Under the pieces are notes generated by a model, which ran no database searches, was not told the DNA's origin, and was given only the letters and a program-made list of their open reading frames with translations. Made by a program: the position numbers and the translations under genes. DNA of 64,000 bases. Origin: Brachycybe producta (lineage: Eukaryota > Arthropoda > Diplopoda > Playtdesmida > Andrognathidae). The stretch is taken from NCBI GenBank assembly GCA_036925085.1, contig JAUPFP010000014.1, positions 4,749,182-4,813,181 on the forward strand, given 5' to 3'. Below, in pieces: positions 431 through 25,900 of the stretch. How positions within the stretch are numbered: the stretch's first letter is position 1; the number at the start of each line of letters is the position of its first letter.

Positions 431-3400
431 ATGACAAGATTACTATTAATATTGGCTAGTCTTTTAGGTAAGCTCTTTGAACACATAAATTATAAATTGC
501 TAATAATGACATTTTTAATATCCTTTGTTACAGAATTTATTAACATGTATTATTAGTAAATGTTCTCACACAGTTCAGTGCATTTTTAGAAGCAACACAA
601 TAAAATAGAAAGTTTGTTAGAAACTAGAATATAGTTAGTGAATGTTCTATGATATTTATTACCATTACCGGTAGTAAATTTTGCTGACATAGTTCAGGTT
701 TACAATTAATTTATATAAGATTTTTTAGAAGCAACTTTAAAATACAGAAGAAAATAGAAAGTTTTGTTAAAAACTAGAATAAGTGAGTGGTTGTGCTGTA
801 AGTATTTTCGTGACATCGTATCTTTTAAAATAAACGTTTTATTTTTAAGTTTTGCCGGGTTTTTTTTTGGCATTAATGATTGTAAAACGTGATATTAAAA
901 ATTAATTTTTAAAGTTATCATTTTGAAAATTGTTTAGTATAACCGGCGATTATTCTACTTTTTAAGGAATTTATGTCTATTTTACACACCTTAAAATTAC
1001 TGTTCATCCAACTTTACACGGTTGTGGTAACACAAGCGGTTTGTGGTTTACTAACAAATCTCATAAAAACTAATTGAAAATGACCGGTAAAATGCTTTTA
1101 AAATGTGTGTTAAGCTTTAATTTTTAAGTTTAGTTTTTCGAAATTATGAATAAAAATTGAAAGTATTAAGAAACTAGAAGGGTATACTAGAATTTTCATG
1201 CTGATATCTTTTAAAATAACCTTTTTATGTCAGTTTTAAAATGAGCCAACTTTAATTTTTGTATCTAAAACGTTTATTTTAAAAGATTAATAATTTATGT
1301 GATTCAGCTGCCCGTTCTAGTTTCTAGTACACTTTTCAATGTCTTCTTAAGCACATTGGCAATATTTAAAGCAAGATTCACTTCAGTGTGTCCTAGGAAA
1401 ACCTTGAAACGCTAATCTTCCGGAGGGTGTTTTTTTTTGCAAGAGACTGTGCGAGATTCCCAGCAATATTTGACTTATTTCTTGCATGGAATTTTGCGAG
1501 AAAAATGACCTGTGTGATCGGGGCTTTTAAGTGTTGCCTCTTCAGAAATTACAGAATAATCAGTTCTCTTCATAAATCATTTTTAGTTGAAAAGATTCTT
1601 TTTGTTGAAAGAAAATAATCTTACTGAATGAAGTCCAATAGACAGTTTGAGGCCATCTGATCATTCAGTTATTGAATTCAATAATTAAAATATCATTGAA
1701 TCGATCTTTATTGTCATTTGTATTGTAGTAAAAGACGACAAGAGTTTTTTGATTAATATTTTAGATGAAAAATGAGGTTAAGTCACTCAGGGTAGGTCTA
1801 TTTTCTATTTAACGAGATTATTTATTTTTCCTCCTCAGCTTTTTCATCTTTTCTTTGCTTATTTAGGTTAAACTTAATTAGAAAGTGAGAATAAAATTTA
1901 CAGTTTTTTCTTTTGTAATTAAACTAACTTGAGGAAAAACACGACAACAAAACGAAATTGAACGTCATATCGTGACAAAATTTAATTTTCATAATTGAAA
2001 TGATTAATTAATGTGGTTTGAAAATTAAAGTGGTTTGAAAACCTCTTACGAAAGCTAGTTATTATATATATATTCTGTCTTTCAGAAAGTGTTTTTTAGA
2101 AACTAGCAGGATATCTCAGTCACTTAAAGAAATCTTCCTGTTGATTATCTTTTAAAATAAGCTTTTTGTGTCACTTTCAAAATCACCAAACTTTAAGTAA
2201 ACGAAATGTTTGCCCATTTAAAAAGTTTATTTTGAAAGATATTAACATGAAGATCCTATTTAAGTGATTCAGCTACCCATCTAGTTTCTAACACACCTTC
2301 ATATTTCTGTTTAATGTTGCTTATCTCGAATTGCAGAAGAACAGAATTCGAAAATGAGCTATTCATAAAACATTTCAATTTTTGTTTGTCATTGTTTTAG
2401 CCATTCTCCATTGTACTCTTGGTCAGTTTGAATACGAAGATGAATACTTGTTTAGTAGAAGGGTCGGATTAGGACCTATTGATTTAGACGAGTCTGCTGT
2501 ACCCACACCAGAAGATCCAGATGGAGATGGAATAATTGGTGCAGCTGGAAAGCATTATCCTATTCTCAAGAAAGTTCCGGAAACATCTTTTCTATGTAAT
2601 GGACGAATTCCTGGCATGTATGCCGATGTCGAGACCAGATGTCAAGCAAGTGGATTTTTCACTTTTTGTTTACATTGAGCTTTTCTTAATAATTTAATCA
2701 TTTTTCTTTACAAATTTCGTTCAGGTTTACCATGTTTGCCAGGCAGACCTTAGAAAAGAGAGTAGCCTTTGTGCAAATGGTACCATTTTCAATCAGGAAA
2801 CTTTTTCCTGCGATTGGTGGTACAACGTGGACTGTTCGATCGCTCCCAGTTTTTACGAACTGAATGCCAACATTGGAAAACCGTCACAAGGTTTTCAATT
2901 ACAGGATGTTCATCCACAGATTTTGCGTCGCAAACTTCCCTTGTTAGAAAAGGGACCTCCTCCTCCACCACCACCTACGTTCCAACTGGACATTCCTGGT
3001 CCAGATTCCATTTTGAAACAAATTCATCCTCCTCCTTCTCTTCCACAATTTGCTCCACCTCCTCCTCCTCCACCTCCACCACCACCTCAGCAACAGATCC
3101 GCCGTAAGAAATTGCGTCGGCCCGTTACGAGTCGTGTTCCGCAGGTCCACGAACATTCCGCTCCCCCTCCACCTCCTTCCATTCCTCGTCCCATTTTGAA
3201 ATCGAGCCACTCGAAACCTCAGGAAGGTCAGTATTTAAGAGATGTATTTGATCCGGCTTTACATTTACCTAGACCGAAACCGTTATCGGCAAAGAAGTTG
3301 GCGGCTAAACAACAACATTCTCTTGGATTGTCAAAACAACCGGACAAATCACCGATGATGCTTCCGGTTAAGAGTCGTGATACTTTGTCTGGTTACAGTG

Positions 3401-3435
3401 AGTTCTATTTGAACAAACCTGTGGACGAAGACTAG
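431..3435 (+). CDS. CPAP1-type cuticle protein with one chitin-binding domain (copy 1)
   Basis: Secreted cuticle protein expected to bind chitin in the exoskeleton. The model has three exons: 431-467, 2401-2645 and 2725-3435 (330 aa). Exon 1 is a short signal-peptide exon (MTRLLLILASLL) joined in phase 1 to exon 2 (AILHCTLGQ), giving a good hydrophobic leader. A DPDGDG/YPIL stretch follows. The CBM14 (peritrophin-A) domain then spans the second splice, with its six cysteines in order and the family motif CDWWYNVDC. The C-terminal half is rich in proline (runs of 9-12 Pro) and basic residues. Intron 1 is about 1.9 kb and holds repeat copies. Intron 2 begins with GC rather than GT (CAA then GCAAGT), while both paralogues have GT there. 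Its two splice positions match the neighbours at 3.8-5.7 kb and 9.3-10.7 kb, so the three are tandem duplicates. An AATAAA lies about 40 bases past the stop. Confidence 0.86.
580..860. repeat. Partial family A elements (left arms)
   Basis: Two diverged copies of the family A left arm (GTTAGAAACTAGAAT and GTTAAAAACTAGAAT, then ATCTTTTAAAATAAACG) lie in tandem inside intron 1 of the first CPAP1 gene. No matching right arm is clear. Confidence 0.6.
1150..1350. repeat. Family A palindromic element
   Basis: Left arm at about 1160 (GAAACTAGAAGGGTA, then CATGCTGATATC) and inverted right arm at 1270-1340 (TTTTAAAAGAT ... TTCTAGTTTCTAG). It lies in intron 1 of the first CPAP1 gene. Confidence 0.75.
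2085..2375. repeat. Family A palindromic element
   Basis: Both arms are visible: AGAAACTAGCAGG ... ATCTTTTAAAATAAGC on the left and TTTGAAAGATATTAACATG ... CATCTAGTTTCTAACAC on the right. The element ends about 25-30 bases before the splice acceptor of CPAP1 exon 2 at 2400. Confidence 0.8.
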
Positions 3436-3808: not shown

Positions 3809-5681
3809 TTAGTAACCTGTAGGTTCAGAAGGCAACGTTCCTTCTGATGGTGGTGACTCTTGTTCTGGAATTGGTTGTAACACGGGAGGAACGACGGCTG
3901 GCGAAACGGGTACTGGATGAAGTGGACTCGGTTGCTGAACGATGGCTACTGAAGGAGGAGACGGTAGACCAGAAGTACCCGTAGGAGACACTGGCGCCGG
4001 AGCTACCGGATAAACAGGACGAATCGGACTCGGCTGCTGGACGATGGGCACTGATGGAGGAGCCACTGGAAGGACGGGGCGAATCGGACTCGGCTGTTGG
4101 ACAATGGACACCGAAGGAGGCGACGGTAAACCGGGCACAGGAGCCACTGGAAGGACGGGACGAATCGGACTCGGCTGTTGGACAATGGACACCGAAGGAG
4201 GAGACGGTGAACCGGGCACAGGAGCCACTGGAAGGACGGGACGAATCGGACTCGGCTGTTGGACGATGGACACTGAAGGAGGAGCCGTCGGAAGGACTGG
4301 ACGAAGTGGACTCGGCTGCTGGACGATGGTTATCGATGTTGGAGACGGTGGACCCGTGACAGATGGTGAAGGAGCCACCGGAAGTGCAGGAGGAAGGGAT
4401 TCCGGGCGTTGTACGAATGAAACTGACGGCTCTTGATAGAGGTACGCATTGAGAACGTAGTGATGTTGAGCTTCGCCGCAGTTGACGTTGTACCACCATT
4501 CACAGGTAAAGTATTTCTGATGGAAGACTGTTCCATTAGGACACAGGAAACTGTCTTGACGTCCATCGAATTGACAAATGTGAAACACCTGGACATAATT
4601 TGCATAACGAAAACGTTAGTTTAATTTCACATGTTTAAAGACAGTGAAAGTGTTTTAAGGTGGTTATAAAGTGTAAACATCCCTCCTCGAAATCAGGTTA
4701 TTTTAATTTTCAGGAGAGCAATTTGAAAGTGTTTTAGAAACTAGAAGGGTAGCTCAATTACTTTTAAGGGTAATTTCATGTTTAACACCTTTTGAAATTT
4801 TAATATTTTGTTGAAAATGACTCATTGAAGATCTTAACACAATGTAGGCTGGAATGTTTGAAAAACATTGAATCTTGAAGCAACTTTTTAAAAGTAATTC
4901 AACTTTCAATCGAAACTAGAAGAGTCGAGGAACCGATTGTGAACGTTATTTCGTCACGATGTTTTTGAAAATATTTTTTTGTGGCAGTTTGATAAAAAGA
5001 ACGATTTTCAATTTTTTATATTATTAAAACTGTTATAAAAAAAGTTTATTTTAAGAGATTTTTACTCTTCTAGTTTTAATTGAACTTGAGACTTTTTTTA
5101 AAAAAGTTACTTCAAAAATCGATCGAAGTTACATCTTAGAAAGACACAGTAGGAAACAGTCTAACACGAAATGAAAGGAAATAGAAATATTTCTTTCGTG
5201 TTAAAAAGAATTGTTAAGGGATTGTACAGAAAACTATTTCGTGTTAAACTAGTTTTCAGTTTGAAATATGGTTTTTACCTGGCATTGAGCTTCCGTGTCC
5301 GCATAATATCCAGGGTACTGTTGGCTGGTGCACTGAAAGTGTGTTAGTGGCACTTGCCAGTGTAGAGGATAATCTGCTCCTCCACGACCTGGAATACAAT
5401 CTGCATCTGGATCTTCGGTTGTCAGGTGACATCCAGAAACTCCACCTTTGACATTACTACCGGGAACGGGGACTGTCACATCCAATTCCCCTAGAATTAC
5501 TGCTTCTTCTCCAACATAACCCATTACGAAACCACTCGGCGGAAAACAGCATAGGCCTAAATGAACAAAAGGAGATACAAGTCCAGATTTCTCCAAAACA
5601 AAAACAAAACAACAACAAAAACAACGTTAACGGGAGGTTCTACTTACACTGTAGAACTAAGATTACAATTCCGTTAAACAT
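3809..5681 (-). CDS. CPAP1-type cuticle protein with proline-rich repeats (copy 2)
   Basis: Secreted chitin-binding cuticle protein. The exons on the minus strand are 5681-5648, 5556-5279 and 4588-3809 (363 aa), with frame kept across both splices. Exon 1 encodes MFNGIVILVLQ, which joins in phase 1 to CLCCFPPSG to complete the leader. Next come GC-x8-DADC and GRGGADYPL, then the CBM14 domain with six cysteines (TEAQC, VFHIC, DSFLC, YFTC, CEWWYNVNC) split by the phase-0 intron after the CQ residues, as in the other two copies. The tail of about 200 residues is a low-complexity array of repeats such as SIVQQPSPIRPVLPVAP (units of 20 and 27 aa). It converges on copy 1, with 373 bases between the two stop codons. 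Confidence 0.87.
4015..4330 (-). repeat. In-frame coding repeats of 60 and 81 bp
   Basis: The motif CGAATCGGACTCGGCTG recurs (last copy diverged) at about 4020, 4080, 4161, 4242 and 4302, giving spacings of 60, 81, 81 and 60 bases, all multiples of three. The array encodes the SIVQQPSPIRPVLPVAP repeats of the CPAP1 copy 2 tail. The spacing suggests unequal exchange or replication slippage under frame selection. Confidence 0.85.
4652..5110. repeat. Two adjoining family A elements
   Basis: The first copy starts with the element tip TTAAGGTGGTTATAAAGTG at 4654, followed by the left arm GAAACTAGAAGGGTAGCTCAA. The second, more diverged copy runs from about 4875 to 5110, with CTAGAAGAGTCGAGG on the left and TACTCTTCTAGTTTTAA on the right. 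Both lie in the intron between CPAP1 copy 2 exons 2 and 3. Confidence 0.7.
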
Positions 5682-9318: not shown

Positions 9319-10713
9319 TTAATTAGATTTCTTTTGATGTTTATCTTTGGTGATTTTTTTCAACCGTTGTTGTCGATGCCTCGTAACCGTATCCGTGGCC
9401 GTATCTTTGTCAATCTTAGGAATAGTTGTAGGCCTAGAAGAAACGTTTATTGCGGTAGTCGATTTAGGCGTTTTTATCGCAGGCCTAACATGTTTCGAAG
9501 TTGTGGTGGTTGTTGGTTTTAAAGTTATGGTGGTTGCGGTTGTGGTGGAATTGTCTGCGGTGGTTTCATCGGTGGTTTCCAAATAATCATTTCGTCTATT
9601 GTAAGTATTTGCCGCATACGGTGGTTCTACCACATCGTAATAATCCATTTCCTCTTCGTAGGGTTCGTACTGTCTTGGAACACGGTCTTCGATACGAGAT
9701 CCGTATTCTGATTGTGTACGATACGCCGGGTCTTCTTCGTAGATGTATCCGTTCTTTTCGTAATGGCGAATACTAGAAGAGCAATCCACATTGTACCACC
9801 AATCACAGACAAGAACCTCCTGGTTGAAGACGGTTCCTTTTGGACATAGAACACTGTGTTGTCTACCATTTACTTCACAGATGTGAAAAACCTGTCAAAA
9901 TGAGATTCGAACAAAAAGGTCTAATTTAACTATAATGTTTCAGGGCTGAGAATGAAGAGATAATTGAACGTGTTTTAGAAACTAGAAGAGTTAATTGTTC
10001 AATCATTGAAGAGCAGTTTCTTATCGGAATCTTTCAAAATAATGCTTTTTATGTCAGGTTGAAAATGATCCAAATTTTAAGCAGACGATATTTTTAAATA
10101 TATTCTTCTAGTTAATTTTGCTCTTCTGAAAGACAGATTAATCAAGAGTTGGGAAATCAGCTGTTTCTAAACCATCTTAATGTTGAGTGCAATTAACTTA
10201 ATTATGTATGCTAATATTTTAATTCTCGCCATTCTTAAACTTTTGTTGTTTTTAGTAAATTCTCTTAATTTCTTCAATGAAAAATTGAACCTACCTGACA
10301 GTAAGCATCAATGTCGGCATAATAACCTGGATGTCGTACTTGTTTGCAATTAAAGTCGGTTATTGGAATGTTGTTAAAGACCGGATAATCGATACCTCCT
10401 CGACCGGTGATACAATCTCCATCGGGATCGTCGTAACTTTTTTCGCATCCGTAACCTTCTACGTTCGAGTTGTAGTACAAGTTCGTTTTCGGATAATAAA
10501 TTGGAGTCGTTGTCACCTCTTGCAAGTAATTACTGTAAGTTGTAGCAGCTACTTTAGCATTTTGCAAAATGCCTGCAAATATAACTGACACTACAACAAT
10601 TCAGAATGAAATACGAAATGATTATTTCTAATAGAAAGAAGTACGACAATTGTCATATTTGCATTGTTATTACCAGTGGTGAGTAGTGTGGCCGTCATCA
10701 CCATTTTGAACAT
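9319..10713 (-). CDS. CPAP1-type cuticle protein with Thr-rich tail (copy 3)
   Basis: Secreted chitin-binding cuticle protein. The exons are 10713-10674, 10590-10295 and 9891-9319 (302 aa), in frame throughout. Exon 1 (MFKMVMTATLLTT) joins in phase 1 to VSVIFAGILQNA to form the signal peptide. A second ATG four codons in is also possible, and an alternative acceptor at CAGGC inside exon 2 keeps phase. The mature N-terminus has GC-x8-GDC and GRGGIDYPV, then a complete six-cysteine CBM14 domain ending CDWWYNVDC. The tail is rich in acidic and aromatic residues, then Thr (ITLKPTTTTTSKH), and ends in a basic stretch. The intron before VFHIC carries a family A element. Intron positions and phases are identical to the two copies at 0.4-5.7 kb. 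Confidence 0.86.
9945..10180. repeat. Family A element in CPAP1 copy 3 intron
   Basis: Left arm TTTTAGAAACTAGAAGAG at about 9972, with degenerate right-end sequence (CAGCTGTTTCTAAACCATCTTAA) near 10158-10180. The tip is of the CTTAAGATGGTTTA type, a variant of the usual CTTAAGGTGGTTTT. Confidence 0.7.
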
Positions 10714-22900: not shown

Positions 22901-25900
22901 GGTAATTCTAGTTTGTAACTGCTACAAAACCAAGATGACCAAGTGGCTTCATTTTTTGTGTTGATGGCGATTTCAGAATCACTTTGTCCATCTTCGAAGG
23001 TCTGGTTTCGAAAGCGAATTCGACGGCTCTGTATCGAAACTGGAGATCTCGGCACGGAATTTCTACTTAAAAATAAAGCCAAAAAGTAATGTTTTATTTA
23101 TTTAAGGTGGCTGGATAGATATTTATTTTGTTTTTGTCAACCCGAACGGCGCCACTACCGTGGTTAATGCTATGCTTCATAGACGTTTTTGTAAAATTTG
23201 GACGCAAAAACGTCAAGCGAAAAAATTCAAATTGTTTTCAAAACTAGAATGGTAAAAAATTATGTTAAACGTTTTTTTTTTGGCAATATCTTAAAAAATA
23301 AACGTTTTATAGTTCAGTTTGGAATTTGGGTTTTTCTATTGACATTTCATACAAAAAACTATTTCTAGTTTCTAAAACACTTTGAATTTTTGTTTAATTT
23401 CTCTCCTGAAAAATATAGATTTTCTGAAAACAGCGGTTGAAAGGGGGAAAAGACCTCCTATAGAGAACATAATAGCCACTGTAGTGGAGAGAAAAGCAAA
23501 ATAAATATCTATTCAACCACCTTAAAGGTCCGCCGTAATGTGATCCGTAAGGATGTGACCTCACTTGAAAAGTTTAATAATAAGAATTGTCGGTAGGAGA
23601 ACGACAATTGTTGACTGGACACCAATGACTATCTCTGTTATTGAAAAAGAATAGTGACCGATGTCCACCTGGACAGTCGAGTCCGGTGTACCATAGAACA
23701 CAATGTTGACCAACATCCATACGAAGAACACGAATAATGCAGTGGACAAACGCTGGACACAAGTGAAGTGACTTGATGCCGGTCTGTTAAACAATTTCAA
23801 GAGGTCAAATGCATTGGCTCCTTGATTTTTTGGTGTTTTTCACAAAAAAAAGGAGACCTTCTAAAAATGCCGAAAAATAAATGGTCATCGGATAGCTTTT
23901 TAGAAATGGTTTCGGTGAACGTCGTGTTTTTGGACTGTTGCAACGTCTCGTAATTGGATATTGTGATATTGGGACCTTCTTCTTTTTGAAGTACGACTGA
24001 CAGCCATTGATTGGCAGTGAAGTTCCGCCGTGTTCGCTGTTGAAGGTCGTGGACGAGAATTCTTCGCAAAAACCTTTTGAAAAAAAAAGATTTTTCTCTT
24101 CTTAAATGGACTTTAGGAGTTTTACTTGGACATATGGTGCAGAGATCCTTAAGGTCTTTGCACCTTAAATGTCCAAATATATTTTTTTTGGATGACATTC
24201 TTAAAGTGTGACAAGTGGATTACCACGATGGACTTAAACCGGACGAATCATGGAAGAGATGAATCTTCCGGATTTTTCCTAATGATTCTGCGGTGGCCAC
24301 GAGAAAAGTATCGTCTTCGCCCCTTTGAAGAACAGCCCGTTTGGTATTATTGGCCAGAATGTGGACGTCACTTCGACTCTCCGGCCCGTCTCCAATGAGT
24401 TGGATTGCGACGTGGGCCGTCGTGCCGGCTCCTCGCTGCCAACCGGTGAACACCGTTACGGCATACAGATAACGAGAAAGTGGATCGTTATCCTCTAACG
24501 GGATCACTTCAGTCAAACGCTGTAAGAAACGTTCCTGTTTTAAGAGCGGGTTATTTTTGAACTCTGCATGGTTATTCTGCAGTTTCAGAATCAGAAGCAA
24601 CACTCTGAAGAAATTGAAAGTGTGTTAAAAACTAGAAGGGTAGCAGGCTGAATCACATAAAAAAGGTTATTCACCCCTAAGTGATTGAGCTACCCTTCTA
24701 GTTTTTAAAACTCATTCAAGTGTCACTTTTCAAGACAAAAATAACCTAAGTTTGAGTGGTCCCGTTTACACTTATAAAAAAAACACCTTAAGACATTGTT
24801 GGTCTTTTCTTTTAGCGACTGGAATGAGCAACAAATAGACAGCTACAATTATGGCCAGAACAATTATAATCAGTTGATTGTTGCGGAGCTCCAGGAACAA
24901 GTAGATGTCATCGATGGGATCGACGACATTCGGAGCAACCAAGAAACTTGCTCCGAACAACGAAGTGTGAAGACATCGGCAATTGACGTATTGGTCATCG
25001 ATGGACATTTCTCCAACCTAAAAGTCGAGTACTGGTCAAATGAGCCACATCGAGACACAGAAAAGTTGTCTCGTAATTACGACTCTTAGCAAACAGGCCA
25101 CTTTCCAACTATAAATACATTGCAATAAAATACATTGCAACGACAGCCCAACCACCGTCGACTTCATTTTGCAGTCGAAAAGTGGTCTTGTGTATTCCAA
25201 TCCTTACTTGACATGCTTCAGTTGACCATTTCGACAAATTCGTGTCCCAGTGGAGACATCGAACCCAAAATGCGGTCATATTGTAACGAATTTCATAATC
25301 GTTCTCCACCGAAGCCGTAAAATTGTTGCTGCCACCGATGGCCACAATTCCAACATAAACTGTGTCCACTTTTTCAGTTATTTCTCTTTTTAAGACGACC
25401 TCATTTTGATGGATTAAAGATTCATCTACAAAATCTTCCAGAGATGGACGATGGTCAGTCACGATGACCACCTTAAAAACACCATGGTATTACATGAACA
25501 CAATTAGGGAGCAATTGAAAGTGTGTTAGAAACTAGAAGGGTAGCCCTGATTTACTTAAGGGTATTTTTATGTTTTATATCTTTCAAAATAAAGTTGGAT
25601 TATTTACAAACTGAACATAAAAAGTAAAAGATATCAACATGAAAATACTCTTAAGTGATCAAGCAACCCTTCTAATTTCTAAAACTTCTAGTCTCTAAAA
25701 CTCTTCTAATCTTTAAAACCAGTTAATCAGCTTTAATGAAGTTAATATTTTGCCTTCAATAAACTGTTGTTCCGATTCAGAGGTGTCACCTGTAGTAAAA
25801 TAAATCCCGGTGTGGAAACGGTCACTTTGTGGACACTTACGTCTTCATCGGTCAAGTTTGACCACTGTTTCAGAGTGATCACGCCGGTTGTTGTTTGTGG

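Follow-up and report, generated by a model that had tools for sequence, protein, structure and literature searches.

On balance, we favour the reading that a short inverted-repeat element, family A, took over the donor of a pre-existing intron in a polycystin gene, between the first transmembrane helix (TM1) and the PLAT domain, and left no codons downstream of that donor. The left tip of the element lies at the donor, and the acceptor that best fits the gene and its homologues lies beyond the element's right end.

The gene lies on the minus strand of the window (the whole 64,000-nucleotide stretch of DNA that was analysed), in a genome of 295 Mb and 442 contigs. A domain search gave E values of 9e-32 and 4e-29 for its channel and polycystin domains, and the PLAT domain was matched in Pfam with an E value of 3.5e-10 for the enclosing frame. 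TM1 could be aligned with human PKD1 and with three paralogues; the GPS motif in the same exon was recognised by eye. As the original prediction had it, the exon 25017-24787 ends in CTTAAG at 24787, reading ...VAKRKDQQCLK, and the intron starts GTGTTTT, both of which are borne out by the sequence and its translation. A crude codon-plus-splice gene finder run on the polycystin gene was set aside, its output being full of micro-exons; the acceptor that it placed at 24602, by way of a 4-nt micro-exon, is unreliable. Elsewhere in the window (2698-3435, 3809-4615 and 9319-9894) are cysteine-bearing frames that resemble, by eye, chitin-binding domains; they are the chief sign in the sequence of an arthropod origin.

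Family A has a 376-nt consensus, mostly with TTAA at its tips, which begins cTTAAGGTGGTTTTAAAGTGTAAACG and ends GACAGAATAATCAGAGTTCGAAAATC...ATAAACCATCTTAA. Of 30 loci fetched, 27 supplied the 36 copies behind the consensus; since these were the best matches to a rough query, it is biased to well-preserved copies. Its ends are not simple mirror images by eye, the left reading CTTAAG-GTGGTTTTAAAGTGTAAACG and the right, read inwards, CTTAAG-ATGGTTTATGAACAGCTGATTTT, and the two arms agree in reverse complement from about position 32 inwards (also by eye). The right tip read inwards has AT where the left tip has GT. The core motif occurs at 37 sites in the window at ≤3 mismatches, against 5.7 expected, and a genome-wide scan allowing ≤2 mismatches in 25 nt gives 2,753 left tips, compared with 0 for the reversed control. 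Of 62 left tips, 45 carry TTAA, as do 19 of 40 right tips; among 19 paired copies, 7 have it on both sides by our own count from the listing. No stop-free run in the six frames of the consensus is longer than 73 codons, and family A therefore has no transposase of its own. Short, with inverted terminal repeats, at very high copy number and without a transposase, it agrees in these respects with a miniature inverted-repeat transposable element (MITE). Among the types of TTAA element are piggyBac and Kolobok. At three loci (L025, L032 and L034) family A copies stand tip to tail, by eye, the right tip of one merging into the next left tip. Another element in the window, at 23526-23101 (minus strand) and 48728 (plus strand), is distinguished by matching tips of greater length, TTTAAGGTGGTTGAATAGATATTTATTTTG ... 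CAAAATAAATATCTATCCAGCCACCTTAAA; it has the TTAAGGTGG start in common with family A and carries family A sequence between its tips.

The copy at the TM1–PLAT intron is recognised by both of its arms (Table 1). The left arm aligns to the consensus with an E value of 2e-18, starting 6 nt inside the exon, and the right arm with an E value of 3e-10, reaching consensus position 369 of 376; AATAACC...TTAAAAC is thus the right end of the element. The alignment of the right arm stops at 24536, 16 nt short of the acceptor TTACAG/CGT, so the element, spanning −6 to 251 of the 267-nt intron, fills it almost wholly. The original prediction had put the donor inside the family A tip and had noted the motif order of intact copies at the right end, and both observations hold, the latter against the consensus with small letter differences. 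At the right end AACG stands in the alignment where TTAA is expected, and a target-site duplication is therefore not demonstrated at this copy. The intron and its edges fold at −81.4 kcal/mol (z −4.83, with 0 of 200 shuffles as good), a strong fold that is expected of an inverted repeat.

Table 1. Features at the TM1–PLAT intron, in positions of the window; a slash marks a splice junction.
Feature	Position	Strand	Remarks
Exon with GPS-like stretch and TM1	24787..25017	-	Open frame, translation
Left tip CTTAAG/GT with 5′ splice site	24785..24792	-	Last exon base 24787, first intron base 24786
Family A copy	24529..24792	-	Two arms aligned to consensus; alignment end 24536, ~24529 by extrapolation
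Intron, preferred form, 267 nt	24520..24786	-	Donor CTTAAG/GTG, acceptor TTACAG/CGT
Inner hairpin of element (AAAAACTAGAAGGGTAGC / GCTACCCTTCTAGTTTTT)	24627..24706	-	
Originally predicted acceptor CTGCAG/AATAACC, first exon base 24576	24577..24582	-	In frame; score −0.42, above 1 of 68
Disputed 57-nt stretch NNHAEFKNNPLLKQERFLQ	24520..24576	-	Right end of element (match to 24536) plus 16 nt
Preferred acceptor TTTCTTACAG/CGT, first exon base 24519	24520..24525	-	Score 2.46, above 4 of 68
Exon with start of PLAT domain	24224..24519	-	Pfam PLAT; 3′ end from crude gene finder

Splice signals were derived from 68 introns (39 myosin and 29 kinesin, with two polycystin paralogue introns left out), whose sites were picked by reading frame and domain continuity in an unsupervised fit, with a floor of 40 nt in the site search. 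The donor CTTAAG/GTG scores 8.79, above 62 of the 68 reference donors, and the left tip of the consensus is likewise a strong donor (8.4 bits). Among the three in-frame partners of this donor TTACAG/CGT, 57 nt downstream of CTGCAG, scores best, 2.9 bits above CTGCAG, yet is low itself. The third, AAAACAG/GAA (first exon base 24534), scores −1.40, above one of the 68 reference acceptors. Summed over both sites, CTTAAG/GTG with TTACAG/CGT reaches 11.25 bits, compared with 8.37 for the pair originally predicted. A further acceptor, TTCAG/AGT at 24604, scores 3.87, but by frame reading it needs the poor donor GT/GTTT (2.48). The consensus has a very strong acceptor of its own 51 nt inward of the tip donor (12.2 bits), and its positions 1-57, with a strong donor and a strong acceptor 51 nt apart, resemble a minimal intron.

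The length of the linker between TM1 and PLAT differs with the acceptor. When TTACAG is used, human PKD1, found among solved structures, can be aligned from TM1 across the linker into PLAT (61 bits, query 2-131), with linker gaps of one and two residues; with CTGCAG, the match is reduced to the PLAT part (54 bits, query 66-150). The paralogues compared were L044, L041 and L043, L042 being in the same gene as L043. With TTACAG, the window's gene and the three paralogues align with linker gaps of one residue, the acceptor falling two codons upstream of the paralogues' equivalent, whereas with CTGCAG the window's gene alone among the four needs an insert of 18-19 residues. The disputed 57-nt stretch has no counterpart in the three aligned paralogues. 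One more locus, L045, a weak match (E 0.7), has a PLAT-bearing frame without the preceding TM1 stretch and was not counted as a paralogue. Of the three in-frame acceptors, TTACAG is the one in best agreement with both splice signals and homologues.

Two of the three paralogues appear to have a phase-0 intron at the corresponding place: L044 (contig C49), with KDRRDVQK/LGATPLPDN and a length of 626 nt, and L041 (C80), with DRRRRDF(V)/PIVTVLKDV. Both introns were deduced from frames and splice signals, their acceptors scoring 9.6 and 11.5 bits; a donor three bases on in L041 scores 5.39 versus −0.42, and the better one was used in the alignment. The two junctions lie within one to two alignment columns, or codons, of the junction in the window's gene. 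In L043 a single exon reads through, with no intron here, which tells against an old intron position. Family A was not found in the 626-nt intron of L044, and in the intron of L041 it stays at least 245 nt away from the donor and 146 nt away from the acceptor. L044 and L041 thus come near to being homologues with an intron at the same position and an exon free of element sequence, although they are paralogues and not orthologues. The paralogue introns, together with a TTACAG acceptor compatible with the linker, suggest that the intron position is probably old, that its donor was taken over and that no codons were left behind.

A point against this reading is that only about 16 nt of non-element intron remain in the window's gene, whereas no reference intron is shorter than 56 nt; the old intron must therefore be assumed to have been lost. 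The takeover that we envisage would have begun when a non-autonomous, TTAA-favouring family A element entered a TTAA that coincided with the 3′ end of the TM1 exon or lay very close to it, the insertion point being the donor of an intron already present in the polycystin family. Because the tip begins G/GTGG and joins TTAA, the strong donor TTAAG/GTGG would have been rebuilt, and the coding sequence would have changed little if at all. The remainder of the old intron would have been lost later, leaving the element and the ~16 nt with the old acceptor region. Splicing would now run from 24786, in the tip, to 24520 (TTACAG), giving an mRNA without element sequence downstream of the donor. We infer the order of these events, the loss of the old intron and the actual use of the two sites; the element, its tip at the donor, the strength of that donor, the alternative acceptors in frame, the nearly matching intron positions of paralogues and the lengths of the linkers are what the analysis shows.

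The near identity of intron and element could also reflect a parallel gain, in which the old intron was lost or never present and the element made a new intron nearby, with the host acceptor TTACAG and no codons left. L043, without an intron here, would suit such a gain, and introners carrying the 5′ splice site alone are among those already published (PMC9860276). When the empty site was reconstructed, one of three joinings of the flanks was in frame (QQCLNFLQRLTEV) and two were out of frame, the outcome varying with the alignment of the right tip, so that the reconstruction favours none of the readings; the in-frame joining arises with the AACG right-end alignment, as insertion into coding DNA would require. 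We nevertheless consider a parallel gain unlikely, as it needs an independent gain, in the same phase, no more than one to two codons from the place where two paralogues have their intron, and the right copy of the target site is not clear.

Also unlikely in our judgement is the origin first proposed for this intron, namely that an uninterrupted coding sequence received a family A element, which provided both splice sites in the manner of an introner and left some of itself (by our count ~14-19 codons) in the exon. Some of the evidence at the element is consistent with such a birth: the donor is inside the tip, little non-element intron is left, one flank joining is in frame, and CTGCAG is in frame and within the element, the consensus having an AG at the same place that scores 3.1. 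The disputed 57 nt contain no stop and average 0.21 bits per codon, in the range of 35 real exons (0.03-0.49). CTGCAG, with its last intron base at 24577, is however a weak acceptor that beats just one of the 68 reference sites, and TTACAG/CGT is better by score and by homologues. The 10-15 element-derived codons of the original prediction rest on this weaker acceptor. The extra residues are missing from the compared sequences of human PKD1 and the paralogues, and the better in-frame acceptor beyond the element removes them, and with them the part of the element supposedly kept as exon. Moreover, two of the flank joinings are out of frame, the pattern occurs in none of 70 reference introns, and the phase-0 introns that L044 and L041, out of three paralogues, have at most one to two codons away speak against the birth of a new intron in coding DNA.

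About as improbable is that the element lay in the old intron and that the match of its tip to CTTAAG/GTG is a coincidence, or that a deletion brought the tip to the donor: many donors have AAG/GTG as their context, between CTTAAGGTG and the remainder of the tip in this copy the length has changed by ~4 nt, and the family A edges nearest to a donor in the reference introns are 13 nt (L070) and 20 nt (L059) away, but 9 of 9 bases match at the expected place and the rest of the tip follows, for which a rough hand estimate puts a chance match in the 10^-3 range.

The behaviour of family A at other introns was followed in 70 reference introns (39 myosin, 29 kinesin and the 2 of the polycystin paralogues). 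It lies inside 12 of these and across a splice junction in none of the 70; L059 looks like a 70-nt intron with a 340-nt element inserted. Because these 12 carry the element away from their junctions, insertion into existing introns is common in this genome, and the distribution is what one would see for a repeat that lands in introns. The proposed correspondence between consensus ends and intron edges therefore stands for the left tip at the donor here, but does not extend to the reference introns. Rare introner-like cases may occur elsewhere, a sample of 70 introns being small against at least 2,753 tips. A codon-bias test was passed by 5 of the 64 rows for left tips and by 4 of the 24 for right tips; the test is too weak to be relied on, with the present intron included five times among the 64 because overlapping loci were retained, and it was set on 35 real exon ends (10th percentile 1.3 bits), the TM1–PLAT target exon itself reaching 0.8. 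Counting open runs only, the upstream run spans all 41 codons examined in 3 of 20 exact-tip loci, a result of little weight. We regard as improbable the wider proposition that family A, with its thousands of copies, is a donor-carrying element that would build TTAAG/GTGG wherever it enters an exonic TTAA, and that replaces or creates splice sites in many genes and sometimes adds codons, with the TM1–PLAT intron and a second one, at 25753-25472, as examples.

This second, possible intron lies in the same gene (minus strand) and would run from TTGAAG/GCAAAA, a GC donor, to TTTTTAAG/GTGGTC. By eye, the right end of a family A copy appears to be at its acceptor. L044 reads through the position in one exon (ITPEDNSVPLLIFARYKQKPTISNY). 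As an example of intron gain, this one may be stronger than the TM1–PLAT intron. Among the myosin genes, L051 (C13:229500-239400) has four similar consecutive exons, all corresponding to one part of the myosin head (profile 377-447), a row comparable to the mutually exclusive exons of arthropod muscle myosin.

MITEs can supply splice sites inside existing introns. Family A is like them in being short, without a transposase, present in very many copies, located in an intron and, as predicted here, lending it a splice signal; it is unlike them in that the donor here falls precisely where TTAA meets the tip, which means that the coding sequence need not change. Published introners include families whose own splice site is the 5′ one, the 3′ site being taken from the host, and one family by which the transcript gains codons (Gozashti et al. 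2022, PMC9860276). Introners as described there share with family A a non-autonomous nature, inverted repeats and, given the donor predicted in its left tip, a splice site at the end, but they form new introns in exons and families of similar introns, whereas the present intron is at a position shared with paralogues and family A crosses none of the 70 reference junctions. Hairpin introners are likewise published: the introner elements of Amoebophrya have inverted repeats, fold into a hairpin as family A does, and have been likened to miniature inverted-repeat elements (PMC7789003). In that account they form non-canonical introns with direct repeats over the exon borders, in contrast to the GT-AG boundaries of the single intron considered here.

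If the tip is indeed the donor, the takeover favoured here would show cleanly how a mobile element can assume a splice site at an intron position already in use, and doing so at little or no cost to the protein. Element sequence at the edge of an intron is not in itself proof that the intron was born from the element; homologous positions and alternative in-frame acceptors need to be checked first. Were the wider donor-carrying proposition true, this genome would hold thousands of natural tests of how the end of an element becomes a splice site.
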